IMG/VR virus record: IMGVR_UViG_3300022689_000138
Span: 1 to 52,159 of that record
Length of the DNA stretch: 52,159 bases
Source of the DNA: a virus
Strand: one strand, 5' to 3'
Below the pieces are notes generated by a model that saw nothing but the letters and a program-made list of their open reading frames with translations, did no database searches and was not told the DNA's origin. The position numbers were made by a program, and so were the translations under genes. This document shows positions 1,147 to 41,006 of this stretch, piece by piece; within the stretch, counting starts at the first letter, position 1, and each line of letters starts with the position of its first letter.

Positions 1147-2010
1147 TTAAAATATATATCTTATTGTATTCCAAGGTATAATTTTATTATGTATAAATTT
1201 AAATTGACTTATAAACTTAGCTTTTAACATATATTTATATCTTATATTTTCCCCACCGTACTCAGATATCTTAGCCTCTTGAATTTCTGGGCTCCATAAT
1301 AATCTCTCAGCCTTTTCATTTTTTATTGTATTATTAATATGTTTATTTTTATTGTGTGTTAAAAAGATAACCTCTGCTTTAACCTCATCTTTATTGTCTA
1401 TATATGTATTGACATACTCAAATAATTCCTCATAGTCTTTTAACCAACCATTATACACTATAACAGGACTAAAATTTAAATGTACTTCATACCCAGCATC
1501 AATAAAACCATCTACAGCCTTGATTCGATCAAGAATGCTGGGGGTATTTGGTTCTAATAATGTAGATATTTTCTGAGGCATAAGACTAAATCTAATTCTT
1601 ACTTTTTTTTCAGGATCATAACTCAAAAATGGCTCAGGAATTATCTTAGTGGCTAAAGTTGCTTTAGCTATAGGATGTTCCTTAAAAAAATCAAATATTC
1701 TAACCCAATCATGTTTTTTATGATGTAAAGCAAAATCTTCATTGCAACTTATATCGTAAGTAATATAAGTTGGATCTGTTTGGTTTGGCTTTGGGGTTGT
1801 ATCAAAAAACGCATGGTTATTGATAGCAGTTAATATTTCATTTGTATTTTGAGCTACAGTTAGTCCTGTAGGTGTGTGTCTTTTCATGTAACAATAGAGG
1901 CAATCTAATAAGCAACCATAACCAAAAGAAGGACTGATATAGTCACTACTTCTGCCTGATTTTCTTATTAGCATAGATTTTCTTTGTATAGGTTGAACTA
2001 ATTTAACCAT
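1147..2010 (-). CDS. Radical SAM protein, spore photoproduct lyase type
   Basis: The 287-aa protein carries C-L-L-D-C-L-Y-C near residues 33-40, a CxxxCxxC cluster that binds the 4Fe-4S cluster and S-adenosylmethionine in radical SAM enzymes. The surrounding S-P-S-F-G-Y-G-C ... Y-C-Y-M context resembles the SPL (spore photoproduct lyase) branch, whose known members repair UV thymine lesions in spores. Length is somewhat below the roughly 340 aa of bacterial SPL. A phage of a non-sporulating host should not need spore photoproduct repair, so the substrate is open: another DNA lesion or a modified nucleobase are possibilities. It follows a tiny cysteine-rich frame with only a few bases between them, suggesting translational coupling. 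Confidence 0.75.
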   Translation of the reverse strand: MVKLVQPIQRKSMLIRKSGRSSDYISPSFGYGCLLDCLYCYMKRHTPTGLTVAQNTNEILTAINNHAFFDTTPKPNQTDPTYITYDISCNEDFALHHKKHDWVRIFDFFKEHPIAKATLATKIIPEPFLSYDPEKKVRIRFSLMPQKISTLLEPNTPSILDRIKAVDGFIDAGYEVHLNFSPVIVYNGWLKDYEELFEYVNTYIDNKDEVKAEVIFLTHNKNKHINNTIKNEKAERLLWSPEIQEAKISEYGGENIRYKYMLKAKFISQFKFIHNKIIPWNTIRYIF

Positions 2011-14613: not shown

Positions 14614-15060
14614 TTAGTCTACCTCATCAATTACTTCAGCTTTCTTAGCCTTTTTAGCTTTTTTCTTAGTTTTTTTGGCTTTAGGCTCTTCAGGCACTTC
14701 CCAATAGTTGTCTTCCTCACTCTTAATCAAAACTACTACATCTTGGCTGTTCATCATATAGTCTAAAGCCTTTTCCTCAGTAAGTTTGATTTGTTTCTGA
14801 AAGTCAAATTGTCTCACCTCAACTTTGTCGTTAAAACGCTCGTCACCTGGCTCATGCTCAGTAACTTTAAATGCATACACATTGTCAGCTTCAACGCCAG
14901 AATTTTCAGCAGCGGTGCCGTCCATAAGGTTAATACCTCTCGGTGATTTCCCAGCGATTGGGTCAAGTACTAAAGGCAGTACACCATGCTTGTTAGCTCT
15001 AATCTTGTCTGATTCGGAAGTGATCGCTCTTACAGAAGCAATCATGTTAAATACTTTCAT
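14614..15060 (-). CDS. First leftward gene: conserved-looking protein (148 aa)
   Basis: The 148-aa protein begins MKVFNMIASVRAITSESDKI and ends in a lysine-rich tail (K-A-K-K-T-K-K-K-A-K-K-A-K-K-A) before E-V-I-D-E-V-D. Codon use is markedly more GC-rich than in the surrounding genes, as in the capsid genes, which suggests high expression. It is the first gene after the leftward promoter and is closed by a GC hairpin. The basic tail suggests nucleic-acid binding. No family recognised; a single-stranded DNA-binding or nucleoid-like role would be a guess. Confidence 0.65.
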   Translation of the reverse strand: MKVFNMIASVRAITSESDKIRANKHGVLPLVLDPIAGKSPRGINLMDGTAAENSGVEADNVYAFKVTEHEPGDERFNDKVEVRQFDFQKQIKLTEEKALDYMMNSQDVVVLIKSEEDNYWEVPEEPKAKKTKKKAKKAKKAEVIDEVD

Positions 15061-16672: not shown

Positions 16673-16949
16673 TTTTATGAAGGCTGGTAAAAAACAATCA
16701 GTAAAAAATCTTAATTTAAAAAGAATAAAGGCTATTAAAGGAATTCTAGCTGAATTAGATGATGCAGCATACGATATTATAAAATCAAAGGAGCAAGTCT
16801 CTGAAGATAATATAGAAGAGTTAGCTGAAAAGTATATGGGAAGAAAAATAGATAAAATGGAAAAAAATATACTTCTAGCAAAACTTAAACATTTTGAAAA
16901 AGTATTAGAAGATGAAAGACAAAAACTACAACAAAATAAATCTAAATAA
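16665..16949 (+). CDS. Helical basic protein (94 aa)
   Basis: The 94-aa protein is nearly all helix, with a basic N terminus (M-K-A-G-K-K-Q-S-V-K-N-L-N-L-K-R) and a coiled-coil-like C terminus. It overlaps both neighbours. Function unknown; nucleic-acid binding is possible from charge. Confidence 0.55.
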   Translation: MSSFMKAGKKQSVKNLNLKRIKAIKGILAELDDAAYDIIKSKEQVSEDNIEELAEKYMGRKIDKMEKNILLAKLKHFEKVLEDERQKLQQNKSK

Positions 16950-17214
16950 TGTTAAATCTTTTTTATCAGCTCATTATAGTATGTTTCTTAATATATTTGA
17001 TTTATACCCAGAGCATAAAAAAGAACAAGTAGCATATAGACTAAGTCTTTGTGATGACTGTATAAAAGAAGGGGAATGTCCTTATTGTGGATGTCCACCA
17101 GAAAAAAAAGCTTTTGCTGATAAATCATGTAATAAAGGAGATAGATTTCCAGATATGTTAAACAAAACAGAATGGGAAGAATTTAAAAAAGAAAATAATG
17201 TTCAAACACTATAA
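16912..17214 (+). CDS. Cysteine-cluster zinc protein (100 aa)
   Basis: Residues 47-73 contain C-D-D-C, C-P-Y-C-G-C and a further C in a pattern fit for one or two zinc ions, near a Y-R-L-S-L motif. I remember similar small Y-R-L-S-x-C ... C-x-Y-C-G-C proteins from Bacteroidetes phages, function unknown. The start at 16912 overlaps the previous gene by 38 bases; an internal ATG at 16981 would shorten it but keep the zinc part. Confidence 0.6.
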   Translation: MKDKNYNKINLNNVKSFLSAHYSMFLNIFDLYPEHKKEQVAYRLSLCDDCIKEGECPYCGCPPEKKAFADKSCNKGDRFPDMLNKTEWEEFKKENNVQTL

Positions 17215-17682: not shown

Positions 17683-19401
17683 ATGAAGGAAAATAAACAA
17701 AAAAGAAGATTAAAAACAGAGCCTAGACTAAAAGTAAAATTATCAGAGGATCAAAAAGAAGTTGTTAAAAATTTTTACGAGTATGATGTAAATTTTGTTC
17801 TAGGAGATTTTGGTTGCTTGTCATTAGGGACTAAAGTACTTATGTATAATGGAGAATTTAAAGAAGTACAAAATGTAGAAGTAGGGGATCTCTTAATGGG
17901 AGTAGATTCTACCCCTAGAAAAGTAAAGTCTTTAAAAAGAGGTAAAGAGCAAATGTATGTCGTTAAACAAAAATCTGGAGAGAATTATAAAGTAAACGCT
18001 TCTCATATTTTATCTTTAAATGAAAAGACTCAAAAAAGAATGCATCGTACTACTGATACAAATGGTAATAGAGTAATTGACTACTCTAAGCCACCATTGC
18101 ACCCAGTAAAAGAGTTTATTACAAATATATCAGTAAAAGAATACTTAAAATTAACCAAGAGTAGAAAAAGTAAATTAAAAGGGTATATAGCTCCTTGTCT
18201 TGAGTTTAAAGAAACGACTCTACCAATAGACCCTTATTATTTAGGATTATGGTTAGGAGATGGTTCAAAGCATGATATACGTTCTATAACAAATGTAGAT
18301 CCAGAAATTAAGCAGTATCTAGAAAATGCGTTTGAAGGTAGGTGGAAAAATATAACATATATAGCGGATTCTAATTCTACAATCGATTTAAAAGAAGCAT
18401 TTAAATCTTTATATAATTTAACAAATTGTACTAAACTATTTCATAAGTATATACCAAAAGAGTATTTAATAAATAGTAAGAAAAATCGACTACAATTGTT
18501 AGCAGGATTAATAGATTCAGACGGGTATTATAATAATAAAGGAGGGTATGAAATAATTCAAAAAGAAAAAGAATTAGCAGACAATATAGTATATTTATGC
18601 AGAAGTTTAGGATTTAGAACAAATATTTATACTAAGACCGCTACTTTAAAACGAAAAGGAAAACCTACTTATCATTGTGACGTATATAGAATTTCTTTTA
18701 GACCTGACATTGAGTTACCTATTAAAATAAGTAGAAAGAAAAGTAACTATATTAGGAAGCAGATAAAGGATGATAAAATACATGGTATAGAGGTAGTAAA
18801 AGATACTGTGGATAATTTCTACGGGTTCGAGCTAGATAAAGACAATTTATTTATACTAGAAGATTTTACAGTGACACATAACTCAGGTAAATCATTGTCA
18901 GCTATATATACTGCAATAGCAGCATTTAGAAAAAAACAGTTTAATAAAATATGGATTACTAGACCTATAACTAAAAATAGTTTATCTACTTTACCTGGAG
19001 ATATCAATGAAAAAATGTACCCTTATATATTTCCTTTACTACAAAACCTAGATGTATGTCAAGGTAAAGAAAATACACAGTCAATGAGAAAAAAAGGAGA
19101 GATAGAGATTATGCCTATATCAGTTGCAAAAGGGGTCACATTTATGGAATCAGTTGTTATTGTAGATGAATTTCAAGATATGACGTATGAAGATTTTAGA
19201 ACTATACTTACCAGACTTGGTAAGGAAAGTAAGGTTATCTTTTGCGGCTCTTGGCAGCAAATAGATAAATCTATAGGAAAAAGCTCTTGCATGCATATAG
19301 TAAAAGCTTTAAAAGATTCTAAATTAGTAGGATGGACAGAATTAACTGCTAATCACAGAAATACAGTATTAACAGATATAATTAATTATTTAGAAAAGTG
19401 A
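17683..19401 (+). CDS. phoH: PhoH-like ATPase with an intein in its P-loop
   Basis: The 572-aa precursor is a 216-aa PhoH-like ATPase broken by a 356-aa intein. The N-extein ends F-V-L-G-D-F-G, and the C-extein resumes S-G-K-S-L-S-A, so splicing restores the Walker A motif G-D-F-G-S-G-K-S. Walker B V-V-I-V-D-E-F-Q-D-M and the following I-F-C-G-S-W-Q-Q-I-D are typical of PhoH. Family members are common in marine phages; roles in RNA or phosphate-starvation metabolism are proposed but not settled. Without splicing the ATP site would be disrupted. It follows the zinc-ribbon gene by one base and its TGA overlaps the GTG start of the next gene. Confidence 0.9.
   Translation: MKENKQKRRLKTEPRLKVKLSEDQKEVVKNFYEYDVNFVLGDFGCLSLGTKVLMYNGEFKEVQNVEVGDLLMGVDSTPRKVKSLKRGKEQMYVVKQKSGENYKVNASHILSLNEKTQKRMHRTTDTNGNRVIDYSKPPLHPVKEFITNISVKEYLKLTKSRKSKLKGYIAPCLEFKETTLPIDPYYLGLWLGDGSKHDIRSITNVDPEIKQYLENAFEGRWKNITYIADSNSTIDLKEAFKSLYNLTNCTKLFHKYIPKEYLINSKKNRLQLLAGLIDSDGYYNNKGGYEIIQKEKELADNIVYLCRSLGFRTNIYTKTATLKRKGKPTYHCDVYRISFRPDIELPIKISRKKSNYIRKQIKDDKIHGIEVVKDTVDNFYGFELDKDNLFILEDFTVTHNSGKSLSAIYTAIAAFRKKQFNKIWITRPITKNSLSTLPGDINEKMYPYIFPLLQNLDVCQGKENTQSMRKKGEIEIMPISVAKGVTFMESVVIVDEFQDMTYEDFRTILTRLGKESKVIFCGSWQQIDKSIGKSSCMHIVKALKDSKLVGWTELTANHRNTVLTDIINYLEK
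17815..18882 (+). mobile_element. Intein with LAGLIDADG homing endonuclease
   Basis: The element starts with Cys (C-L-S-L-G-T-K-V) and ends V-T-H-N before an extein Ser, the standard splicing ends. N-A-S-H near its residue 60 matches the block B histidine. Two DOD endonuclease motifs, L-G-L-W-L-G-D-G and L-L-A-G-L-I-D-S-D-G, lie in the middle. F-Y-G-F-E-L-D closes the Hint domain. All parts look intact, so both splicing and homing may be active. It is in frame and has no stop. Confidence 0.92.
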
Positions 19402-19661
19402 AAGAAAAATACCCACCATTTACAAAAAGAAAACTGGTTAAGATACTTGAAAGCATTCATGCACATGATCCAAAAGGTAGTGAGTTTGAAATGACTACTG
19501 GTAAACTAGGAGCTATAGACTATTTAGTACATTTTAGAAAATATATACATGAACTAACTGGCAGTAAATATAATGAAAAAGCATATAGAGCTGAACTAGA
19601 AAATAAACTAACAGAGGGCCCATATAGGATTACAGAGAAGGGCTTAGAAATACTACACTAA
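19398..19661 (+). CDS. Protein of unknown function (87 aa), GTG start
   Basis: The start is GTG in the GTGA overlap with the PhoH stop. The protein is basic and helical with a centre H-A-H-D-P-K-G-S-E-F-E and an end T-E-K-G-L-E-I-L-H. The stop overlaps the next ATG. Not recognised. Confidence 0.55.
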   Translation: MKEKYPPFTKRKLVKILESIHAHDPKGSEFEMTTGKLGAIDYLVHFRKYIHELTGSKYNEKAYRAELENKLTEGPYRITEKGLEILH

Positions 19662-20041
19662 TGAAAAATATAAAAGCAGTAAGCCTAAACATCAAATTAA
19701 AACAGCTTTTTAAAACATGGTTACAAATTACTAGAGTATTTCATAAACTGACAAAACAACAAATTGATGTATTAGCTTTATTGTTATATTATCATTACAA
19801 ATTACAAAAACAAATAACTAATAAAAAAATACTTTGGAAAGTTGTATTTGATTATGACACTAAAGCTAAAATAAAAGAAGAGTTAGATATAACAGATCAA
19901 AGTTTACAAAATGTTTTAACTCAGTTAAGAAAGAAGAATATAATAATTAATAATGAGATTGTATCAACTTATATTCCAAACTTAGAAAAAAAGAGCAAGG
20001 AATTTAAGATAATATTTAATTTTAATATCATAGATGAATAA
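19661..20041 (+). CDS. Putative winged-helix DNA-binding protein (126 aa)
   Basis: The middle part L-T-K-Q-Q-I-D-V-L-A-L-L-L-Y-Y, followed by L-D-I-T-D-Q-S-L-Q-N-V-L-T-Q-L-R-K-K, reads as a winged helix-turn-helix with its recognition helix near residues 85-100. It may regulate phage transcription, for example at the palindrome near the divergent promoters; that link is inference. It overlaps neighbours on both sides. Confidence 0.5.
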   Translation: MKNIKAVSLNIKLKQLFKTWLQITRVFHKLTKQQIDVLALLLYYHYKLQKQITNKKILWKVVFDYDTKAKIKEELDITDQSLQNVLTQLRKKNIIINNEIVSTYIPNLEKKSKEFKIIFNFNIIDE

Positions 20042-20339
20042 AAAGGACGATAAAAAAATAAAAAAATTAATGCATAGTTTGGGATTAAAATATAATTTAC
20101 CAGACCATGTAGTTAAACAAATAGTAGAGTCACCTTATGAATTCGCATATGAGCAACTAAAAAAATTAACGCTAGATGGTATTCAATCTGAAGAAGAATT
20201 AAATAAACTAAAAACAAATTTTAATTTTAAAGGTTTAGGTAAACTATATGTTAGTTACCCTCATATTAAAAAAAGGGAGAATCAAAAAAAACTTATGAAT
20301 CGCATAAACAATAAAAAAAATGGAAGAAGAGACAATTAA
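20034..20339 (+). CDS. Basic helical protein (101 aa)
   Basis: The 101-aa protein contains L-G-L-K-Y-N-L-P-D-H-V-V-K-Q-I-V-E-S-P and a basic C terminus (K-K-L-M-N-R-I-N-N-K-K-N-G-R-R). I associate this pattern with small conserved proteins near the terminase in Bacteroidetes phages; no function is known to me. It overlaps the GroES-like gene by 20 bases. Confidence 0.55.
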   Translation: MNKKDDKKIKKLMHSLGLKYNLPDHVVKQIVESPYEFAYEQLKKLTLDGIQSEEELNKLKTNFNFKGLGKLYVSYPHIKKRENQKKLMNRINNKKNGRRDN

Positions 20340-20694
20340 AAACTTAACACAGAATGACGTATTAGAACTAATCAAGGACTTTCCTGTTAAACCTCTAAGA
20401 AATAGAGTAATTATTACTACTAATACTGAAGAAATTGAGGAAGATGAAGTAGACTATACTGGTAGTGCATTTTCTCCTGTTCAGTATGTTTTAGCTGTTG
20501 GAAGCTATAATGAAGATGTTTTTAAACCAGGTCAAAAAGTACATTTAGATTTAGAATCTATGACCGTAAATAATCCTAATAGAGAAGACGTTTATAATCC
20601 AGTACAACAAATTAAAATTAAACCTGTAGAAGTAGGTGATAAATTTTATGGTATGATTACTGACGATAAAATTGATTTTATTTATAATGGTTAG
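20320..20694 (+). CDS. groES: GroES-like co-chaperonin
   Basis: The 124-aa protein keeps the order of GroES landmarks: K-P-L-R-N-R-V-I-I near residues 24-32, an acidic mobile-loop region, V-L-A-V-G-S near 57, K-P-G-Q-K-V near 68-73 and the final D-D-K-I-D-F-I-Y. It is longer than the usual 95 aa because of an N-terminal helix and an insertion. It should cap the GroEL-like ring encoded 0.9 kb downstream. Three short genes separate the two, unlike the bacterial groES-groEL pair. The mobile loop lacks the G-G-I-V-L motif, which fits a specialised partner. Confidence 0.7.
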   Translation: MEEETIKNLTQNDVLELIKDFPVKPLRNRVIITTNTEEIEEDEVDYTGSAFSPVQYVLAVGSYNEDVFKPGQKVHLDLESMTVNNPNREDVYNPVQQIKIKPVEVGDKFYGMITDDKIDFIYNG

Positions 20695-20869
20695 TATTAG
20701 ATTTGGAATTAAAGAGTCACTATTGGGACTTCTAATAGCCCAGGACTTACCAGTACAAAACACATTAACAGATGAATTTTTAAAAGGAGATCTTATATCT
20801 ATAGGATTTATATTTTTAAGATTAGACATATTTTTTAACATAGAAAAATTAAACACCAATGAACAATAA
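20687..20869 (+). CDS. Small protein of unknown function (60 aa)
   Basis: I chose the ATG at 20687 (MVSIRFGIKESLLGLLIAQD), overlapping the GroES stop by eight bases. The protein has hydrophobic stretches but no clear transmembrane helix. It lies between the chaperonin genes. Not recognised. Confidence 0.45.
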   Translation: MVSIRFGIKESLLGLLIAQDLPVQNTLTDEFLKGDLISIGFIFLRLDIFFNIEKLNTNEQ

Positions 20870-21077
20870 TAAATCAGAAAACAAAGTAGAAGATGCTTTT
20901 AAAATTCTAAGTCAAAGCTTAGAAATGGCTAACTCAAGGGGGGCTTTTAGTATTTTAAAGGGAGAGACAAAAGTTATTTTTGAGTCTTTAGTCATATTAG
21001 AACAAGAATTAAAAAAGTGTAAGGAGTGCAATATGCACCTAGCCAAAGAAGAGCCTAAGTCAAATAAAGACATATAA
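20859..21077 (+). CDS. Small helical protein (72 aa)
   Basis: A 72-aa helical protein (MNNNKSENKVEDAFKILSQS) with a single C-K-E-C pair near residues 54-57. It overlaps the preceding gene by 11 bases. Function unknown. Confidence 0.5.
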   Translation: MNNNKSENKVEDAFKILSQSLEMANSRGAFSILKGETKVIFESLVILEQELKKCKECNMHLAKEEPKSNKDI

Positions 21078-21079
21078 AA

Positions 21080-21640
21080 ATGAAACTTTTTGAGTTTAAA
21101 AATTGGAAGTTAACAGTCTCTGAGGAAGCTTGGGGACTGCTTCCATTTAAAAAAATACTAGATAGAGATAAAACCAAAGAAAAAGAAAATGCATTAAAAG
21201 AAATGTTATTTATATTTTTTTGGTCTGATATTAGGTCTAATTATATAAATATGCCTGACAGTCAAAAACTAGAAGAAATAAAAAAGGATGTTGGTCTATC
21301 TAGTAAGTGGAAAAAAGACAGTGTAATAAATGAAGCTATCACTTTATATGAAAAACTAGGACAAAGTGTAATAGAAACTTTATATAAGCAATCCTTAAAG
21401 GGAGCTCAAGCAGTAGGTAATTATTTGGAAAACTCTGAAGCACTATTATATGAAAGAGATAATAATGGTAAACCAGTAAATGACATTTCTAAAATTACAA
21501 CCGCACTGCAAAAAGTACCAAACTTAATGAAGGATTTAAAAAATGCTTATAAAGAAGTAGTTAGAGAAAGAGAAGACAACGACAATAAGAAAAAAGGTAG
21601 TAAACAATTTAATACATTTGAAGATGGCCTTACATTATAA
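21080..21640 (+). CDS. Conserved-looking protein before the terminase; small terminase candidate (186 aa)
   Basis: The N-terminal 60 residues (F-E-F-K-N-W-K-L-T-V-S-E-E-A-W) are rich in aromatic residues, followed by a long helical body and a basic end. I recall proteins with this opening near terminase genes of Bacteroidetes phages, but they carry no assigned function. Position just upstream of the GroEL-like and large terminase genes makes a small terminase or packaging role possible, not shown. It overlaps the GroEL-like gene by 17 bases. Confidence 0.5.
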   Translation: MKLFEFKNWKLTVSEEAWGLLPFKKILDRDKTKEKENALKEMLFIFFWSDIRSNYINMPDSQKLEEIKKDVGLSSKWKKDSVINEAITLYEKLGQSVIETLYKQSLKGAQAVGNYLENSEALLYERDNNGKPVNDISKITTALQKVPNLMKDLKNAYKEVVREREDNDNKKKGSKQFNTFEDGLTL

Positions 21641-23072
21641 AGAAAGAAATTTAGAAGTAACTAATTTTATACAAAACGTAGTAAAAGAAATAGCAGAATA
21701 TGTTACTTTAACTATGGGACCAAATGGTCGTTATGCTGTACTAGCGGAGTTATATAACCCACCAGTAGTAACTAAAGACGGTGTATCTGTTATTAAAGCC
21801 ATAGCTGACAATGATCCATATAAAGATGCTATTATAAAACTACTATTACAAGTATCAGAGCAGACATTAGAAGAAGCTGGTGATGGTACAACTACTGCTA
21901 TATGTTTAGCAGAAGCACTGCTAGATTATGGATGTAATCAATTGGATAAGGGTAAACTTTATAAAGACGTAGAAAAAGATTTTAATAGACTTGAAAAAAA
22001 TGTATTAAAAGAACTAAATAAAATGTCTGAAGAGTTAAACCAAGAAGACATAAAAGAAGTAGCTACTATATCTGCAAATGGTGATATTAAAATGGGAGAG
22101 TTAATTCAAAAGGCCTTTGATCATTCTGACAATGTTAAAATAGAGGAAGGTACTAAAACTGAAGATGAGGTAGAAACTATAAATGGTATGATTTTAAATA
22201 CTGGTTATTTAGATAATGCTTTTATTACCAACCCAGAAAAAGACGCTATAATGTATAAAGACCCACTTGTATTTATAGTAGAGGGTACATTAAATAATTT
22301 AAAGCCACTGGCTAAAGCTGTTGATGAATCTAATGGTAAACCAGTTATAATTATAGCTGATGATGTTAATCCTAATACTCAGATATTGTTAAGAGATAAT
22401 TTTAATAAAGGTGTATTACAAATAGGTTTAATGAAAACACCAGGTTTTGGTGGACATAGAAAAAATTTAGTTAATGATTTAATAAGATATACAGGTGCTA
22501 GATTAGTAAGACATGATACTGTTCATGCTATTCCTGGGAAAATTGATAGTATTTCTATATCCAAAGAGAAGACTATTATAACAAAAAAGTATTTGTCAAC
22601 AGAATGCAAAGTATATGTAGATAAATTAAAAGAACTATATAAAAATAAAAAAGATGATTTACTTGCTAAAAGAATAAGTAATCTAAATGGCTCTATTTCA
22701 ATAATTAAAGTTGGTGGACTTACTCCAGCAGAAGTCAAAGAGAAATTTGATAGATATGACGATGCAGTAAAAGCAGTAGCTTGTGCTATTGAAGAGGGTA
22801 TAGTACCTGGTGGAGGACAGGCTCTTTCTTTAGTATCTTATAATCTAAGAGGTAAAATAAAGGCAGAGTTATTAGAGGCTTTAGATGCTCCTATAAATAC
22901 AATAGAAAAAAATTCAGATTACTCATTAAAAATCTCTTCTAGGGATATGATGAGTGAAAAAATATTTGATCCTACAAAAGTAACAAAAACAGCTATTAAA
23001 AACGCACTATCTGTGTCAAAACTACTTTTAAACTCTGGATCTATAATATTAGATAGAGCTTTATGGAAGTAA
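21624..23072 (+). CDS. groEL: GroEL-like chaperonin
   Basis: The 482-aa protein keeps the chaperonin ATP site: T-M-G-P-N-G-R near residues 32-38, V-T-K-D-G-V-S-V near 51-58, G-D-G-T-T-T-A near 88-94, and V-P-G-G-G-Q near 396-401. It is about 65 residues shorter than bacterial GroEL. Loss of that length comes from the C-terminal part and parts of the middle and apical domains; the E. coli-type G-G-M tail is absent. The ATG at 21624 is chosen; a TTG two codons earlier is less likely. It sits between a small packaging-linked gene and the large terminase, so capsid or terminase folding is the likely job. The presence of its own GroES-like gene supports a complete phage chaperonin. Confidence 0.92.
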   Translation: MALHYKERNLEVTNFIQNVVKEIAEYVTLTMGPNGRYAVLAELYNPPVVTKDGVSVIKAIADNDPYKDAIIKLLLQVSEQTLEEAGDGTTTAICLAEALLDYGCNQLDKGKLYKDVEKDFNRLEKNVLKELNKMSEELNQEDIKEVATISANGDIKMGELIQKAFDHSDNVKIEEGTKTEDEVETINGMILNTGYLDNAFITNPEKDAIMYKDPLVFIVEGTLNNLKPLAKAVDESNGKPVIIIADDVNPNTQILLRDNFNKGVLQIGLMKTPGFGGHRKNLVNDLIRYTGARLVRHDTVHAIPGKIDSISISKEKTIITKKYLSTECKVYVDKLKELYKNKKDDLLAKRISNLNGSISIIKVGGLTPAEVKEKFDRYDDAVKAVACAIEEGIVPGGGQALSLVSYNLRGKIKAELLEALDAPINTIEKNSDYSLKISSRDMMSEKIFDPTKVTKTAIKNALSVSKLLLNSGSIILDRALWK

Positions 23073-23080
23073 AATATAAA

Positions 23081-25363
23081 ATGAATTCATACCAATCTCC
23101 TTTATCTAAAGAATTAAAGGAGTCATTACCTAAAGAAATTTGGAACGATTTAATTGAATATATATCTCAAGTTCAGTTTATTCAAAATCTTATAGCCCCA
23201 GAAGAAGTAAGAGGCTTTATAAAGGATAGACCTGTAATGACTTATGTTAATGATAAAGGAGAGGAAGTAGAATATGAAGACGGTAGGAGAGTTGTAGATT
23301 TAGCTAAGCCACATATATTAGAAGACATGGATTATTTTAGAGAAAGGGCTCTATTCTTTCAAAAAAATAATAGATATACAAATCTTATACCTAATCCCAA
23401 CCCTAAATCTGACTATGCACAATTTTGGAGAAATGAATTAAAAAAATGGAAGAATGGTTTAGTAAGACCAGATGGAGAGTGGATACCAGGTGAATTATAT
23501 TTTTATTGGAATTATGCTCCAATTTGGATTACAAAAAGATCTGGTAAAAGTAAAAAAAGAGCTGACAGGGTAAGGGAGTTTCCAAAACCTTGGCTAGGTG
23601 ATTATCTATTTCATCATTATGTGCATGCAGCTAAGGAAGCTGGTAAACATGGTAAGCTTCTAAAAACAAGGGGTGTTGGTTTTAGTTTTAAGGCTGGTGC
23701 TTGGTCTCCTAGAAATATGTATGTACATACTGGATCAGGTAATCCTAATTTTCACTTAGCATCAGAAAAAACATTTTTAGTAGGAGACAAAGGTATATGG
23801 GGTAAAGTATTAGATACCTTAGACTGGATAGCAGAGCATACACCATTTCCAAAACTAAGGCTTGTAGATGGTAAAAGGGCTATGGAAGTTCAATTAGGAT
23901 ATGAAGATGAATATGGTGTAAGAAAAGGTATATTATCATCTGTATTTGGTATATCACTAAAAGATAACCCAGACAAAGCAAGGGGTATTAGAGGACCATT
24001 AATTCATTATGAAGAAGACGGTCTATTTCCCAATCTTGAAAAAGCTTGGAACGTTAACAGAAAAGCAGTAGAGGATGGTGATATATCATTTGGATTTATG
24101 CTTGCTGGTGGTACAGGGGGTGTTGAGGGCGCTTCATTTGAAGGCTCTGAAAAATTATTTTATAAACCCTCTGCTTATAATATATATCCCATAAAAAATG
24201 TATTTGATAAGAATACTAACGGGGAGACAGAATGTGGATTTTTTTGGGGAGCTTATATGAATCGTAACCTATGTTATGATGAGTCTACAGGGGAACCAGA
24301 CGTAATTAAATCACTAGTAGAAATATTAAAAGGTAGACATACTGTTAAGTACAATTCTACAGATGCACTAGCTTTAACACAGAAAAAAGCAGAAGAACCG
24401 ATTACACCACAAGAGGCTGTAATGAGAACTTCTGGTACAGTTTTTCCAGTAGCAGATTTAAAAGATTATTTAGAAGATATATCTATAAATAGAGATAATT
24501 TTTTATCAAAGCATTATGTTGGAAGATTAGTTATTGACCCACAAGATGGATCAGTACATTGGAAATTAGACCCTGATTTATATCCTTTAAGAAGTTATGA
24601 ACATTCTGGAGCAGATAGATCTGGAGCATTGGAAATTTTTGAAATGCCAAGAAAAAATGCAGAAGGTAAAATTGCTAGAGGAAGATATATAGCAGGTATT
24701 GACCCTATAGATTCAGATACTGGTGGTTCTCTATTTAGTATATTAGTAATGGATACTTTTACAGATAGGATAGTAGCTGAATACTCAGGAAGACCTAGAA
24801 CTGCTAAAGAGGCATATGAAATAGCTTATAGAACTTTACTATTTTATAATGCAGAAGCTAATTACGAAGCAAACTTAAAAGGTTTATTTTCTTTCTTTGA
24901 TCAGAAAAATGCATTACATTTATTGTGTGATGTACCTCAAATATTAAAAGACATGGATTTTGTAAAAGGTACTAACTTATATGGAAATAAAGCTAAAGGT
25001 ACACATCCTAATAAACTAATAAATGCATGGGGTAGATTATTACAGGCTGATTGGATGAGGGAAAGTATAAGTACTCCTACTGGGGAAGAAGATGAGAATA
25101 AATTAAATTTACATACTTTAAGAAGTTTAGCTTATATAGAAGAATGTATAAAATGGAATGCAGATGGTAACTTTGATAGGGTATCTGCAGGAGGTATGCT
25201 ATTTATACTTAGAGAAGACAGATATAAAAGAATACAAAGTGCTAAAAATAACCAAGATGAAGGAATAAAAAGTTTAGCGGATGATCCCTTTTTTAGAAAA
25301 AACTATGGTTCTTTTACTGAAAATAAGCAATTTAAGTCTAACACAGAGTTAAATTTAAAATAG
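23081..25363 (+). CDS. terL: Large terminase subunit (DNA packaging ATPase-nuclease)
   Basis: The protein is 760 aa from the ATG at 23081 (MNSYQSPLSKEL); an ATG six codons earlier overlaps the GroEL stop. The ATPase domain has K-T-R-G-V-G-F-S-F-K near residues 194-203 at the place of Walker A, with S-F-K instead of the canonical G-K-T/S, and L-I-H-Y-E-E-D near 305-311 at the place of Walker B. The nuclease domain begins with A-G-I-D-P-I-D-S-D near 538 and has N-Y-E-A-N near 594. The length and the gene order terminase-portal-scaffold-capsid agree with crAss-like and related phages. The odd P-loop may be a feature of this branch. Confidence 0.88.
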   Translation: MNSYQSPLSKELKESLPKEIWNDLIEYISQVQFIQNLIAPEEVRGFIKDRPVMTYVNDKGEEVEYEDGRRVVDLAKPHILEDMDYFRERALFFQKNNRYTNLIPNPNPKSDYAQFWRNELKKWKNGLVRPDGEWIPGELYFYWNYAPIWITKRSGKSKKRADRVREFPKPWLGDYLFHHYVHAAKEAGKHGKLLKTRGVGFSFKAGAWSPRNMYVHTGSGNPNFHLASEKTFLVGDKGIWGKVLDTLDWIAEHTPFPKLRLVDGKRAMEVQLGYEDEYGVRKGILSSVFGISLKDNPDKARGIRGPLIHYEEDGLFPNLEKAWNVNRKAVEDGDISFGFMLAGGTGGVEGASFEGSEKLFYKPSAYNIYPIKNVFDKNTNGETECGFFWGAYMNRNLCYDESTGEPDVIKSLVEILKGRHTVKYNSTDALALTQKKAEEPITPQEAVMRTSGTVFPVADLKDYLEDISINRDNFLSKHYVGRLVIDPQDGSVHWKLDPDLYPLRSYEHSGADRSGALEIFEMPRKNAEGKIARGRYIAGIDPIDSDTGGSLFSILVMDTFTDRIVAEYSGRPRTAKEAYEIAYRTLLFYNAEANYEANLKGLFSFFDQKNALHLLCDVPQILKDMDFVKGTNLYGNKAKGTHPNKLINAWGRLLQADWMRESISTPTGEEDENKLNLHTLRSLAYIEECIKWNADGNFDRVSAGGMLFILREDRYKRIQSAKNNQDEGIKSLADDPFFRKNYGSFTENKQFKSNTELNLK

Positions 25364-25455: not shown

Positions 25456-27849
25456 ATGTCAAGAATAAAAAATTTACAAATGCCTCAGCAGAGGTTAGCT
25501 TACGTCAAAAAAAATAAAGAATGGCGTATAAAAAACTTAGATGCTGCTGACAGGTATTCTTTTTATTATAATGAGTCAGTAAGACAAACTCTTAGGAATA
25601 AAGTAGTTAATCTAAACTTGTATAATGGTATTGTAGATATTAGAGATTTAACTAGTACTGTTAATCCTAATAATATAGAGGCAAGCTTTATACCAGATAA
25701 TTTACCTCACCATCCTATTGCTGTACCTAAAATAGAATTACTAGTAGGCGAAGAAAGTAAAAGAAGATTTGATTGGAAAGTTATAGTTACAAATCAAAAT
25801 GCAATAACTGAAAAAGAAAATAATAAAAAACAATTACTTGAGCAAAAACTTATAGAGTTTCTACAAGCTAATTATCCAGAAGAAGAATTAGAAGGAAGAC
25901 TTAAAGAAATAGAAGACTATTTTAAATATGACTGGCAAGACGTTCGTGAAAAGATGGCCAATCAAATATTAAGACATTATTGGAAAGAACAAGACTTTGA
26001 TATGATATTTCTGCTTGCATTTAAAGATGCTCTTATTATGGCAGAATCTATTGTACAAGTAGATATTATAGCTGATGAGCCAGTTTTAACAAAGTTAAAT
26101 CCATTAAAAGTACACTCTGTTAGATCTGGTAACAGTGAAAGAATAGAAGACTCGTCTATAATTATAATTGAAGATCATTGGTCTCCTGGAAAAATTGTAG
26201 ATTATTTTTATGAGGATTTAAAACCAGATGATATTGATTATATAACAGAGTATAGTTTTAAAACATCACACGCTTCTTTTAATGATGATATGGATAACCA
26301 TACATTATTAAGAGATAATGTATTAGGTGCAAACAATGGTATATTATCTAATTCTGTAGAAAATATATTTTCTTTGGCTGAAATAAACGGTCATCATTTT
26401 GGTTCTAACTTTACTGATGAAAACGGTAATATTAGAGTATTAAGAGTTTATTGGAAATCCTTAAAGAAAATAAAAAAAGTAAAATATTATACAGAAGATG
26501 GGGAAGTTGAATACAAAATTAAATCTGAAGAGTATATACCTAATAAAGAATTGGGCGAAGAATCAAAGGATTTATGGGTTAATGAATGGTGGGAAGGTAC
26601 AAAAATTGGTAAAGACATTTATATACAAATGCGACCTCGCCCTGTACAATTCAATAGAATTAATAACCCTTCTTACTGCCACCCAGGTATAATAGGAGAA
26701 ATATACAATACTAATCAAGGTAGAGCTGTCTCTTTAATGGATAGAATGAAAAACTACCAATATATGTATGATGTAATTTGGGACAGATTAAATAAAGCCA
26801 TTGCTACTAATTATGGTAAAATATTTGAATTAGATTTAGCTAAAGTACCTGCTAATTGGGAAATAGAGAAATGGTTACATTTTGCAGTAGTTAATAAAAT
26901 AGCAGTAGTAGACTCTTTTAAAGAAGGTAATAAAGGAGCAGCCACTGGTAAGTTAGCAGGAGGTTTTAATGGCCAAGGTGGCAGAGCTATTGATATGGAA
27001 ACTGGTAGTTATATACAACAGCATATCCAATTATTAGAATTTATTAAAATGGAAATGTCTGAAATTGCTGGTGTAACTAAACAAAGAGAAGGGGCTATCC
27101 ATCAAAATGAGACTGCTTCTGGTGTAGAAAGATCTGTAAATCAATCATCACATATTACAGAGTATTGGTTTTTTAAACATGAGAAGTTTAAAATAAGAGT
27201 TTTACAAGCCTTTCTAGAAACTGCTAAAATAGCTTTAAGAGGCAACAATAAAAAAGTACAATATATATTAGACGACCAAACTATTCAAATGTTGAATATA
27301 GAAGGTAATGAATTTGCTGAAGCAGATTATGGTCTAGTAGCTACTAGTTCTTCTAAAGCAGTAGAATTAGAGCAAATGCTAAAGATGAATGCACAAACAT
27401 TTATGCAAAACGGTGGAAGCATGGGTACTATTATGGATATATTTTTTAGTCCATCTCTTGCGGATATGCGTAAGAAACTTGAGATTGCAGAGGAAAAAAT
27501 CAGATCTCAAAATAGCGCTCAAGCTGAACAGGCAAATAAACTTGCTGCAGAAAAACAGCAACAGGAGTATCAATTAGAAATGGAAAAACTACTGTTAGAT
27601 GAAAGAAAGAATATTAGAGATAATGAAACAAAACTTTTAATAGCAGAAACTAAAAATGATTTAGATGTAGATGGTATTGAAGACCCTTTACAAGAACAAA
27701 AATTTCAGTTGGACTCAGAAAAAATCAAGAATGATCATCTACAAAAAATGATAAAACTTGACCAAGAAATGAAAATGCATAACGATAAAATGCAGAGAGA
27801 AGATAAAAAAATACAAGTGTCAAAACAAAAGAAAACTGAATCAAAATAG
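25456..27849 (+). CDS. Portal protein
   Basis: The 797-aa protein follows the terminase and precedes the scaffold and capsid genes, the fixed place of a portal. The centre (residues 120-560) is a mixed fold with S-E-I-A-G-V-T-K-Q-R-E-G-A and E-T-A-S-G-V-E-R-S-V, a stretch typical of phage portals near the clip and wing. The last 130 residues are a long charged coiled coil (E-E-K-I-R-S-Q-N-S-A-Q-A-E-Q) like the barrel helices of podovirus portals. Length is close to that of crAss-like portals. A stable AT-rich inverted repeat follows the gene. Confidence 0.8.
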   Translation: MSRIKNLQMPQQRLAYVKKNKEWRIKNLDAADRYSFYYNESVRQTLRNKVVNLNLYNGIVDIRDLTSTVNPNNIEASFIPDNLPHHPIAVPKIELLVGEESKRRFDWKVIVTNQNAITEKENNKKQLLEQKLIEFLQANYPEEELEGRLKEIEDYFKYDWQDVREKMANQILRHYWKEQDFDMIFLLAFKDALIMAESIVQVDIIADEPVLTKLNPLKVHSVRSGNSERIEDSSIIIIEDHWSPGKIVDYFYEDLKPDDIDYITEYSFKTSHASFNDDMDNHTLLRDNVLGANNGILSNSVENIFSLAEINGHHFGSNFTDENGNIRVLRVYWKSLKKIKKVKYYTEDGEVEYKIKSEEYIPNKELGEESKDLWVNEWWEGTKIGKDIYIQMRPRPVQFNRINNPSYCHPGIIGEIYNTNQGRAVSLMDRMKNYQYMYDVIWDRLNKAIATNYGKIFELDLAKVPANWEIEKWLHFAVVNKIAVVDSFKEGNKGAATGKLAGGFNGQGGRAIDMETGSYIQQHIQLLEFIKMEMSEIAGVTKQREGAIHQNETASGVERSVNQSSHITEYWFFKHEKFKIRVLQAFLETAKIALRGNNKKVQYILDDQTIQMLNIEGNEFAEADYGLVATSSSKAVELEQMLKMNAQTFMQNGGSMGTIMDIFFSPSLADMRKKLEIAEEKIRSQNSAQAEQANKLAAEKQQQEYQLEMEKLLLDERKNIRDNETKLLIAETKNDLDVDGIEDPLQEQKFQLDSEKIKNDHLQKMIKLDQEMKMHNDKMQREDKKIQVSKQKKTESK

Positions 27850-29115: not shown

Positions 29116-30627
29116 ATGAGTATTGGTAAATTTGTAATGACCAAAGGTAAAGCTTGGTCAGGATTAACACTAAAGAATCATATTGGTGCTATTTTTGGTA
29201 GTCAACCGCAATTAGTTTCGCCATTGACTACTGTTCTTTTACAGAACTCTGGGATGAAAAACTTGGATACTACGTTATCACTTTTCCCTGAGAAAGTACT
29301 AGAATCTGCCGACGATTTTGTTTGGAAGGTTGTAGGTAGTGATGAGCGTAATATTGCACTTGTGGCTGCTGAGTACCAAGGTTCTGTAGTACAGTCTAGC
29401 GATTCAAACGTTGGGGCTGGTAGAACTGTAATTGACCTAATCTTTGCTGAGAAGTACTTTACTAAAGTACAAGTTATTGGTGGTAATAAGCCTGACTTAT
29501 ATCAGTATCGTATCTTAGGTGAACCAACAGAAGATGGAGGTAACTATCGTTACCAAGTAGAAATTTTTGGAGGTCAAGAAACTTTAGGTGGTGTACCTGG
29601 AAGTGACTTAGTATCTGGAGTTAGATTTAGTGTTGAATCAGCTTATGTTGAGGATGAACTATCTACTGAAGGTGCTGGTATTGCATTCACATCTCCTTAC
29701 TTACTTAGAAATAGTGTATCTACACTACGTTTTGAGCATAAAGTATCAGGGGCAATGATTGATTGTAAAGTTAAGCCAGTTTTCTTTACAGGTATTGAGA
29801 CTAGAGACCCAGACAGTGGTAAAGTTCATTCATCCGTAACTTGGATGCAGGAAGTATACTGGCAGTTTGAAAAAATGATGTCAAGAGTAAAAGCTCGTAC
29901 ATTAATGTTTGGTAAAACTAACAGAGATGAAAACGGACGCTTTTTAAATAAAGGTAAATCTAACATTGAAATCAAAGCTGGTTCTGGTATTAGAGAGCAA
30001 ATGGAAGTTAGTAATACTACTTCTTATAACCGCTTCTCTATTGCTATGCTAGAAGATTTATTATCTGAGTTATCAGAAGGTAAATTAGATTTTGGTGAAA
30101 GAAAATTTATGCTAAGAACTGGAGAGCGTGGTGCTATCCAATTCCATAGAGCAGTAACTAACGAAGCATCTGGATGGACTTCTGTAGGATTTGATAATAC
30201 AAATCAAAATGCTATTCAATCAACAAGTAGCAAATTCCACAGTAATTCATTCTCTGCTGGATTCCAATTTACAGAGTGGAAAGCTCCTAATGGTATCCAT
30301 GTAATGTTAGAGATCGACCCAATGTATGATGATAAAGTAAGAAACAAGATATTCCATCCAAATGGAGGTGTAGCTGAGTCTTATCGTTATGATATCCTTT
30401 ATATTGGATCTATGGAAGAGCCTAATATCCAAAAAATCAAAGTCCGTGGTGATGATGAAATGAGAGGATATAAAGCAGGTATTAGAGACCCATTCTCTGG
30501 TAGAAAAGGTGGTATTATGCAGCATATGGAAGATTCTGCTATCATGACAGCAATGTGTGGTACAGGAGCAATGGTTAAAGACCCTTCTAGAACTGCTACT
30601 CTAAAACCAAATCTTTTAGCAGCTTAA
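29116..30627 (+). CDS. Major capsid protein
   Basis: The 503-aa protein lies directly after the scaffold and its codon use is more GC-rich and regular than in the neighbours, as expected for the most abundant virion protein. The length and parts such as F-H-P-N-G-G-V-A-E-S-Y-R-Y-D-I-L near residues 413-428 recall crAss-like major capsid proteins of the HK97 fold. There is no N-terminal prohead protease domain. A terminator-like hairpin follows within 25 bases. Confidence 0.82.
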   Translation: MSIGKFVMTKGKAWSGLTLKNHIGAIFGSQPQLVSPLTTVLLQNSGMKNLDTTLSLFPEKVLESADDFVWKVVGSDERNIALVAAEYQGSVVQSSDSNVGAGRTVIDLIFAEKYFTKVQVIGGNKPDLYQYRILGEPTEDGGNYRYQVEIFGGQETLGGVPGSDLVSGVRFSVESAYVEDELSTEGAGIAFTSPYLLRNSVSTLRFEHKVSGAMIDCKVKPVFFTGIETRDPDSGKVHSSVTWMQEVYWQFEKMMSRVKARTLMFGKTNRDENGRFLNKGKSNIEIKAGSGIREQMEVSNTTSYNRFSIAMLEDLLSELSEGKLDFGERKFMLRTGERGAIQFHRAVTNEASGWTSVGFDNTNQNAIQSTSSKFHSNSFSAGFQFTEWKAPNGIHVMLEIDPMYDDKVRNKIFHPNGGVAESYRYDILYIGSMEEPNIQKIKVRGDDEMRGYKAGIRDPFSGRKGGIMQHMEDSAIMTAMCGTGAMVKDPSRTATLKPNLLAA

Positions 30628-38926: not shown

Positions 38927-39343
38927 ATGAGAAATATTAAATTTTTATATTTTATTTTATTCATTTTAATGTCGCTACCATTAAATGCACAAAGACTTCT
39001 TGAAGAAGATAAGCAATTTCATTATGTAGCAACAGGATTGTTTGCTGTACCCACTTACTACTTCACAGTAGAGCAACTTAATCTAACTCCTTCTGAGGGA
39101 GTAATTGTTACAACAGCTTTAGGTGCATTAGGTAGTTGGGGATTTGAACATTTACAAAAAACCACAGGTAATGGTGTATATGATAAATATGACATCTTAG
39201 CAGGAACAGTTGGAGCATTTACAGGAGCTATGTTTGCTGAGGTTATTAGATATAAGCCAAGCTCTTACAAACAAAGGATGCTTAGAAAACAAAAAAGAAA
39301 AGAGAAAAGACTTAGAAAAAAACTAACTAAACATGAAAATTAA
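38927..39343 (+). CDS. Signal-peptide protein of the YfiM-like type (138 aa)
   Basis: A Sec signal peptide (MRNIKFLYFILFILMSLPLNAQ) precedes D-K-Q-F-H-Y-V-A-T-G. Hydrophobic stretches follow around residues 57-75 and 95-110 (G-T-V-G-A-F-T-G-A-M-F-A), then a very basic tail (K-Q-K-R-K-E-K-R-L-R-K-K). The D-K-x-x-H-x-x-x-G opening recalls YfiM-like envelope proteins of unknown role. It is inserted, with the protease gene, in a run of fibre genes. It overlaps the protease gene by 11 bases. Confidence 0.5.
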   Translation: MRNIKFLYFILFILMSLPLNAQRLLEEDKQFHYVATGLFAVPTYYFTVEQLNLTPSEGVIVTTALGALGSWGFEHLQKTTGNGVYDKYDILAGTVGAFTGAMFAEVIRYKPSSYKQRMLRKQKRKEKRLRKKLTKHEN

Positions 39344-41006
39344 ATTTTTATTAATTACCTTTTTTATTAGCTTGGCTACATGGTCACAATCCTGTGGTGT
39401 AATTGATGAGGAAATTAATACTAGACACGCTCAATATATTGACAGTTTACAAAGACCCGTATTATCATTTGATGTACATAATGACGTGCCTAATTTTTAC
39501 CCATTAACTATACATATAATTAGAGATAACAATGGTAATACAAACTTAAATCTAAATAATCTTTTATCTGAGATAGATTTAATGAATGACTATTATTTAC
39601 CAGCAGGTATTCAATTTTTTATATGTCAAGAAATAAACTATATTGATAACTCTAATTATTATTTTTTTAATCAGGGCCTTGAAGAAACAGAGATAGGTAA
39701 TGCATATGATATACCTAATACTATTAATATTTATTTTGCTAGTAATGTAACAAGCTCTAACGGCTCCTCATTATGTGGTTATGCTTATTATCCTGGTGGC
39801 CCATTAAGAATTATTATGTCTAATTCGTGTGCTACTAATGGAAGTACTTTAACTCATGAAATGGGGCATTTTTTTGGTTTATTACATACTCATGGTACAA
39901 GTAATACTAAAAATGCTACAAATGAACTAGCAGACGGTTCTAATGGTGCCACTGAAGGAGATAGAGTACAAGACACTCCCAGTGATCCACAACTAACTGG
40001 AGAAGTTAATTTTAATTGTATATATACCAATAATTATTTAGATAACAATGGACAACCACATAATCCAGACCCACACAACATCATGTCTTATTCAAGAAAA
40101 GAATGTCGTGATTTTATAAGTATTGGACAACTAACAGTAGTAAATCTAGTAGCTAATTCTTCTAGAAGTACTTTGATATGTTCAAATTTTAATGCTAATT
40201 TCACAGCTGACACTACTAAAATATGTGAAGGTCCATTAGAGGTTAATTTTATAGATACTAGTGTAGGAGCAGTTAATTGGGAATGGGATATTAATGCTGA
40301 TGGTAATATAGATTATATTGGACAAAATATAACTCATATTTACAATGAGTCTGGAAGCTATAATGTAGCTTTAACTATTACAAACAATGAAGGTAAAAAA
40401 ATATCTAAGGTTAAAAATAATTTTATTAATATAGGAGGGGAGATTATAGATACAGATATAATAAAATTAGAAATAACATTAGATAATTGGCCTACAGAAA
40501 CTACTTGGAAATTTGTAGATTCTAATAATAATATTCTTCTAGAAGAAAATAACTATCAACAAGCAGATAGAAATAAAACATTTAACTATGAATTAAATCT
40601 TACTAATAATGAATGTTATTCATTTATAATTACAGACCGTTTTGGAGATGGTATTTGTTGTAGTCAAGGTCCTGGTAATTATAAACTTTTAGATAATAAT
40701 GATAATATATTATTTGAAGGTGGTAGTTTTGGTAGTATAGAAGAAATTAATTTTAAAACATTAGAAAATGTTCTTTCAATAGATAATAATATTTTTTATA
40801 ATTTTAAAATGTATCCTAACCCATTTAGTAATACAATAAACCTAAATGATTTTATAGATAGTTACAAATTATATTCTATTACAGGTCAGCTTGTTTTAGA
40901 AGGAACAAATAAAGTAATCAATACAAATTCTATTAATAAAGGGTTTTATATTTTAGTAATAAAAAAAGAAAATAAAACAAAGCGCTTTAAAATAATAAAA
41001 AAATAA
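39333..41006 (+). CDS. Secreted M43-type metalloprotease with T9SS sorting domain
   Basis: The 557-aa protein has a signal peptide (residues 1-19), and a zinc protease domain with H-E-M-G-H-F-F-G-L-L-H at 175-185 and the Met-turn N-I-M-S-Y-S, as in the pappalysin/cytophagalysin M43 family. A PKD domain follows at about 290-345 (W-E-W-D-I-N-A-D-G-N). Next is a domain with D-R-F-G-D-G-I-C-C, common in marine secreted enzymes. The C-terminal type A T9SS sorting domain has Y-P-N-P-F and ends in K-R-F-K-I-I-K-K. All parts needed for export through the host's type IX machinery are present. In a phage tail module this is very unusual. It has phage-like AT content, and its stop overlaps the next fibre gene, so it is integrated in the operon. 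Confidence 0.9.
   Translation: MKIKFLLITFFISLATWSQSCGVIDEEINTRHAQYIDSLQRPVLSFDVHNDVPNFYPLTIHIIRDNNGNTNLNLNNLLSEIDLMNDYYLPAGIQFFICQEINYIDNSNYYFFNQGLEETEIGNAYDIPNTINIYFASNVTSSNGSSLCGYAYYPGGPLRIIMSNSCATNGSTLTHEMGHFFGLLHTHGTSNTKNATNELADGSNGATEGDRVQDTPSDPQLTGEVNFNCIYTNNYLDNNGQPHNPDPHNIMSYSRKECRDFISIGQLTVVNLVANSSRSTLICSNFNANFTADTTKICEGPLEVNFIDTSVGAVNWEWDINADGNIDYIGQNITHIYNESGSYNVALTITNNEGKKISKVKNNFINIGGEIIDTDIIKLEITLDNWPTETTWKFVDSNNNILLEENNYQQADRNKTFNYELNLTNNECYSFIITDRFGDGICCSQGPGNYKLLDNNDNILFEGGSFGSIEEINFKTLENVLSIDNNIFYNFKMYPNPFSNTINLNDFIDSYKLYSITGQLVLEGTNKVINTNSINKGFYILVIKKENKTKRFKIIKK

Follow-up and report, generated by a model that had tools for sequence, protein, structure and literature searches.

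A predicted cognate GroES/GroEL pair, probably single-ring, next to the terminase gene of a crassvirus fragment

When a phage encodes both a GroES-like and a GroEL-like protein beside its packaging genes, do the two act together, and with which partners and on which proteins? This question is raised by the IMG/VR virus record IMGVR_UViG_3300022689_000138, the whole of which (52,159 bases) was analyzed and is called here the window. Its plus strand carries a gene for a 124-amino-acid GroES-like co-chaperonin (the lid, 20320..20694) and a gene for a GroEL-like group I chaperonin (21618..23072). Our analyses revealed a GroES fold, a GroEL fold that retains every ATP-site residue, a conserved gene order leading into the terminase gene, a loss of the canonical residues for contact between rings, and an altered groove and loop. 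The best explanation, which we consider probable, is that the proteins form a cognate GroES/GroEL pair, probably single-ring and uncoupled from host GroEL, which serves the folding of virion proteins. Remodelling at both the lid-barrel and the barrel-barrel contact sites points to a single-barrel folding machine of the phage's own, used in making virus particles.

Identity of the lid and of the GroEL-like protein

Single-sequence and HMMER-profile searches with the lid alone gave nothing significant in Pfam, PHROG, NCBIfam or PDB sequences; there was no match at the gathering score of Pfam Cpn10 (PF00166), and a scan of viral contigs with the GroES-like protein alone retrieved zero relatives. 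Relatives were collected instead by fetching viral contigs with the terminase. Comparison by hhalign of a 35-member lid alignment with 71 Cpn10 sequences (70 cellular ones and that of E. coli) gave an end-to-end match with an E value of 4.4e-6 and a score of 39.1, while the top score among 60 column-shuffled alignments was 16.8 and reversed alignments scored 13.5-14.9. A wider lid set, to which phi14:2, cr108_1, cr111_1 and crAss001-type proteins were added, matched Cpn10 with an E value of 3.5e-10.

The AlphaFold2 (AF2) model of the lid has a predicted local distance difference test (pLDDT) score of 82.8 and is of low confidence just at residues 1-5 and 40-48. The second of these stretches coincides with the position of the GroES mobile loop. 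Foldseek matches of the model above background were solely GroES (probability 1.00), mitochondrial Hsp10, Cpn10, T4 gp31 and the Cpn subunit of the chloroplast ClpP complex. Structural comparison with VIA gave Z scores of 9.5 for Hsp10, 8.8 for GroES (1AON) and 7.3 for gp31 (1g31), and scores below 6 for proteins of the alcohol dehydrogenase type, which include a GroES-like domain. The mobile loop spans approximately residues 36-55, the roof loop is shortened, and an insertion of about 25 residues follows the KVHLD strand. The profile of the lid family matches the orthologous crAss001 gp15 at 5.6e-11; this protein is labelled 'putative 10kDa chaperonin' in its record and scores 17.3 bits against Pfam Cpn10, under the cut-off of 21.1. 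On the modelled structure the 124-amino-acid protein has the GroES beta-barrel fold and belongs to the Cpn10 family. The preliminary description of this locus had made the pair depend on a GroES fold of this protein, a fold on which hhalign, the AF2 model and Foldseek/VIA agree.

The open reading frame (ORF) of the GroEL-like protein begins at TTG 21618 (484 amino acids) or at ATG 21624 (482 amino acids), the second start matching the 482-amino-acid chaperonin first described. The motifs on which both proteins had been recognized were found in place: TMGPNGR, GDGTTTA and VPGGG in the GroEL-like ORF, and KPLRNRVI and VLAVG in that of the lid. The GroEL-like protein matched Pfam Cpn60 at 9e-42 (143.8 bits, cut-off 34.3), the PHROG chaperonin at 1e-98 and PDB GroELs down to 3e-71. 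Its AF2 model (pLDDT 89.8) shows a complete three-domain fold, for which single-ring human Hsp60 was the best structural match (VIA Z 38.3 over 473 residues), tied with E. coli GroEL (38.1). Since its score of 288.6 bits lies below the cut-off (582 bits) of the NCBIfam GroEL equivalog TIGR02348, the protein is a divergent relative and no equivalog of cellular GroEL. Every ATP-site residue is present, D87 and D398 included. T30, G32, P33, K51, D52, G53, D87, G88, T89, D398 and D495 are invariant across 37 relatives, and T90 and T91 show one substitution each.

The maximum-likelihood GroEL tree placed the window clade apart from the cellular GroELs and from copies that phages have picked up recently; the GroELs of Vibrio phage Va1 and Bacteroides phage DAC23 fell inside bacterial branches. 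An origin of the crassvirus GroELs as one clade was neither supported nor rejected (approximately unbiased test, p 0.34) in this tree, which is limited by long branches.

Ring contacts, lid-ring interface and roof

The inter-ring salt bridges of E. coli GroEL, K105-D435 and R452-E461, are missing in mitochondrial Hsp60 (mtHsp60; PMC5575113). At these positions the window protein has Asn for K105, a gap for D435, Asn for R452 and a gap for E461. A residue-checked alignment showed that it lacks the segment 461-478, and the C-terminal GGM tail is lacking as well. In the same alignment E461, S463 and V464 were absent from all 37 relatives, while these positions were gapped in 0 of 80 cellular GroELs. 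Asp at 435 occurs in none of the GroEL family of the window clade (37 relatives), and A109 is replaced by Lys or Arg in 28/37. A second, larger alignment had the 461 region gapped in 32 of the 37 and neither Glu nor Asp at 461 in any of the other five. Read from these residues, the GroEL of the window is predicted to form a single ring.

The apical groove positions Y199, Y203, F204, L234, L237, L259, V263 and V264 read YAFAVQRD in the window. The last five are near-always hydrophobic in the 80 cellular GroELs and are A, V, Q, R and D in the window; mean groove hydropathy is 2.5 in 70 cellular pairs and approximately 0 in the window clade. In this GroEL-bearing clade the mobile loop of the lid has a mean length of 17 residues and a mean charge of -5.2, while in nine crassviruses without GroEL it has a mean of 22 residues and a charge of +0.4. 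Outside the loop the mean charge of the lid was -4.4 with GroEL and -4.7 without it (p 0.93). In the window loop, V26 of GroES is replaced by Asp and the preceding Gly-Gly by Asp-Glu, and Val and Tyr, both hydrophobic, stand at I25 and L27. A simple electrostatic complementarity of loop and groove was also considered and was dropped, the net charge of the groove being mixed. GroES and GroEL distances were correlated after the terminase distances had been removed (partial r 0.34, permutation p 5e-4, 37 distinct pairs). Given the remodelled loop and groove, it is more likely that the lid is decoupled from host GroEL.

Normal GroES arrests a single-ring version of E. coli GroEL, which regains function once the I25 contacts of the lid are partly weakened (PMC5575113). 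Because a single-ring GroEL needs such weakened GroES loops, loss of the second ring and a weaker or altered lid contact would be mechanistically coherent.

Several points weigh against a single ring decoupled from the host. The alignment around 430-480 is uncertain, one alignment having residues there in 5/37 relatives, and rings could pair through other surfaces. The contrast in loop charge lies mostly between clades, and its nominal p of 3e-6 ignores shared descent. The GroEL-bearing cr108_1 and cr111_1 retain host-like hydrophobic stretches in the lid loop, and, since loop anchors 25 and 27 are still hydrophobic in the window, the lid may still bind host GroEL to some extent.

At 9 residues, the segment that forms the GroES roof is shorter in the window lid than in E. 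coli (17) or in many Bacteroidota (12). T4 gp31 is without roof loops, a lack believed to help it fold the 56-kDa T4 capsid protein (PMC6318259). A capsid client is plausible here by analogy, since the crassvirus capsid protein (503 amino acids) is about the size of that of T4 and the roof is short as in gp31.

Gene block, distribution and history

The preliminary description had placed the lid gene about 0.9 kb upstream of the GroEL-like gene and beside packaging genes; the distance measured was 927 nucleotides, and the block indeed runs into the terminase gene. All genes of this block (19661-25363) lie on the plus strand, and neighbours overlap or sit a few bases apart throughout. It begins with a homologue of crAss001 gp13 (19661..20041, hhalign 4e-41), annotated 'VpsT-like transcriptional regulator', and a homologue of gp14 (20034..20339, hhalign 2.1e-29), annotated 'protein HU', which overlaps the start of the GroES-like gene. 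Past the latter lie a 60-amino-acid ORF (20687..20869), for which sequence and searches revealed only about 10 related ORFs, and a 72-amino-acid ORF (20859..21077), for which searches revealed 33 in the clade and in phi14:2. They are followed by a 186-amino-acid homologue of crAss001 gp16 (21080..21640; hhalign 2.2e-43, PHROG 16390 7e-5) overlapping the GroEL start, and, after the GroEL-like gene, by the gene of the terminase large subunit (TerL, 23063..25363; PHROG 6681 6e-103), whose start overlaps the GroEL stop. Since the 60-amino-acid ORF occupies most of the apparent gap, the block forms one contiguous gene run into the terminase. Scans for promoters and terminators gave results at chance level.

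Matches to the crassvirus major capsid protein (MCP), TerL and portal in Pfam and PHROG, together with the gp13-gp16 block, assign the window to the Crassvirales, and by sequence it is a 52-kb fragment of a phage near the family Steigviridae. Judged by its capsid protein, Cellulophaga phage phi14:2 (Steigviridae) is the closest isolate, with an MCP identity of 62%. Downstream of the terminase, on the same strand, are the genes for the portal protein (25456..27849, PHROG 6547 5e-160) and for the 503-amino-acid MCP (29116-30624, Pfam Crass_capsid 1.8e-170), the proposed client. Near position 15000 the coding strand, the GC skew and the AT skew all flip sharply, from a minus-strand replication half to a plus-strand late half. 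The replication half encodes a spore photoproduct lyase-like protein (1150-2010, minus strand, Pfam SPL 2.8e-23), a DnaB-like helicase and PolA. Upstream of the gp13 homologue, both on the plus strand, are a small protein with a zinc-ribbon-like cysteine run (CDDCIKEGECPYCGC; 16912-17214), possibly the counterpart of the crAss001 zinc-finger transcription factor, and a PhoH-like ATPase gene (17683-19401) in which a LAGLIDADG intein, recognized from its Hint and homing-endonuclease matches, interrupts the Walker A motif, the joined flanks reading GDFG-SGKS. The virion-gene half also encodes, at 39333-41006 on the plus strand, an M43-type metallopeptidase with a PKD domain and a Bacteroidota type 9 secretion C-terminal sorting domain (Por_Secre_tail 6e-8), a set of domains unusual for a phage and a candidate secreted or virion-borne protease. 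An anti-phage-defence reading was checked and gave zero PADLOC matches.

GroEL was found in 55/58 fetched contigs with enough sequence, and both genes in 41 of the 45 contigs that had at least 4.2 kb upstream of the terminase; with few exceptions among the relatives, the GroEL reading frame extends a few bases past the first codon position of the terminase gene before it stops. In phi14:2, cr108_1 and cr111_1 GroEL lies several genes off while the lid is still between the gp14 and gp16 homologues. The lid was present in 8/8 Steigviridae genomes searched and GroEL in 2/8, plus cr111_1. Three metagenomic relatives carry a lid without GroEL, two of them being fragments of less than 40 kb; in close relatives without GroEL (L084:3498-4043, L085:8670-9209 and L086:8497-9021) the lid is extended at its C-terminus to 174-181 amino acids and has a loop of host type. 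On the terminase tree, GroEL must have been gained or lost no fewer than four times. Because all Steigviridae searched have the lid and few have GroEL, we infer from presence and absence that in Steigviridae and the window clade the lid is the more ancient of the two, GroEL having either arrived later or been more labile. This history, with a GroES-like gene that would be ancestral and usually without GroEL in related phages, corrects the preliminary description.

One contig fetched with the clade, L082, has a GroEL (L082:7426-9030) that groups with that of phi38:1, and a GroES-like gene was not detected in it; this GroEL is possibly an independent acquisition. The positional equivalents of the lid in Suoliviridae, Fipvunavirus and p-crAssphage gave no support as GroES, with one weak 37-column match of cr50_1 to Cpn10, and the lid is therefore claimed solely for Steigviridae and the window clade. 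The rarity first attributed to phage GroEL genes, and even more to pairs, stood in part: 287 of 50,697 phage records match the window GroEL, but pairs are annotated in phi38:1, elemo, immuto and ctfjg026 and are the norm in the window clade.

Known systems, competing explanations and meaning

Phages with GroES only, with both proteins and with GroEL only have all been described (PMC7185714), and GroEL has been noted in marine Bacteroidetes phages (PMC5332604). No discussion of the crassvirus pair was found in the freely accessible papers searched; chaperonin genes were mentioned just in passing, and the annotation of crassvirus genes in sequence records goes no further than 'chaperonin groEL' and 'putative 10kDa chaperonin'. 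In crAss001 and the Steigviridae the orthologous lid shares with that of the window the gp13, gp14, gp16 and terminase neighbours, the insertion and the short roof loop; unlike the window, crAss001 is without GroEL, and the mobile loop of its lid has more residues, almost no net charge and a host-like character. Phage phi14:2 encodes both a lid (g096, annotated merely 'hypothetical protein') and a GroEL (g105), with 35% and 33% identity to those of the window, respectively, but its GroEL lies 2.3 kb upstream of the lid and not between the gp16 homologue and the terminase, and its groove is less polar. The Bacteroidota phages phi38:1, elemo and immuto also have GroES and GroEL genes close together; their GroES is annotated Cpn10/GroES, their gene contexts are other ones outside the crassvirus block, and immuto has a groove and loop of cellular type.

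T4 gp31 and RB49 CocO resemble the window lid in the GroES fold, the shortened roof loop and the proposed role in capsid folding, and no sequence relationship between them and the window lid was detected. The partner of gp31 is host GroEL, while the window phage encodes its own. That the two proteins nevertheless do no joint work, the lid capping host GroEL as gp31 does and the phage GroEL remaining lidless like those of EL, OBP and AR9, is unlikely. The chaperonins of these three phages do work without a co-chaperonin (PMC7185714, PMC9598537), the lid has orthologues in phages without GroEL, the distribution of GroEL is patchy, and the anchor positions 25 and 27 have stayed hydrophobic. However, the host-like loop pattern is lost precisely in the GroEL-bearing clade with the charge elsewhere in the lid unchanged, lid and GroEL distances co-vary beyond the terminase, and both genes share one conserved block. 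The GroELs of OBP and AR9, which are counted among the single-ring chaperonins, further differ from that of the window in having no known lid, and AR9 retains residues at 461-464.

The position between the crAss001 gp16-type gene and the terminase, and the presence of the terminase and a chaperone among the crAss001 late genes (PMC8375218), argue against a general host-takeover or stress set that would keep infected-cell proteins folded late without dedication to virions; we regard such a role as quite improbable, although groES-groEL pairs lie outside structural modules in other phages and the virion clients named here are candidates only. The gene overlap with the terminase in nearly all relatives and the groove turned polar would also fit a GroEL-like packaging or assembly factor, such as a terminase or procapsid partner, without a folding chamber, the lid being a separate beta-barrel assembly factor. 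This is very improbable, since the ATP-site residues are conserved over the 37 relatives, the entire three-domain fold is retained, and GroEL stands several genes away from the terminase in phi14:2, cr108_1 and cr111_1.

For a cognate single-ring pair, seven GroEL subunits would assemble into a ring and take up a phage protein that is not in its native state; with ATP, the roof-poor GroES heptamer would cap this ring via its acidic mobile loop, and the client would fold within the capped chamber. The complex would open unaided by another ring, in the manner of mitochondrial Hsp60/Hsp10 or of engineered single-ring GroEL whose lid has been weakened. The inter-ring salt-bridge residues are likewise missing from mtHsp60 (PMC5575113), while the ring state of the window GroEL is a prediction. 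The likely clients would be late virion proteins from the same region, foremost the 503-amino-acid capsid protein; a virion role is inferred from gene position and by analogy with T4 gp31.

The lid would have come first, presumably acting on host GroEL; T4 gp31 works in this way, and so, presumably, does crAss001 gp15. Later the window clade would have gained its own GroEL, after which the lid loop would have diverged from the host type. We put forward only tentatively that this was a partner switch, in which an ancestral lid of host GroEL was recruited to an acquired phage GroEL, yielding an orthogonal single-ring, capsid-dedicated system that lost the second ring and the host-type interface. 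Phage GroEL/GroES pairs as such are already known; what would be new is the partner switch and the single-ring architecture, both predicted from sequence.

Crassviruses are among the most abundant phages of the human gut. Phages with a lid only and phages with a lid plus a ring occur within one family, and therefore a capsid-folding chaperonin and a change of lid partner can be tested by comparison. Should the pair prove to work as a single ring and orthogonally to host GroEL, it would offer a compact natural parallel to engineered single-ring GroEL and to mitochondrial Hsp60/Hsp10.

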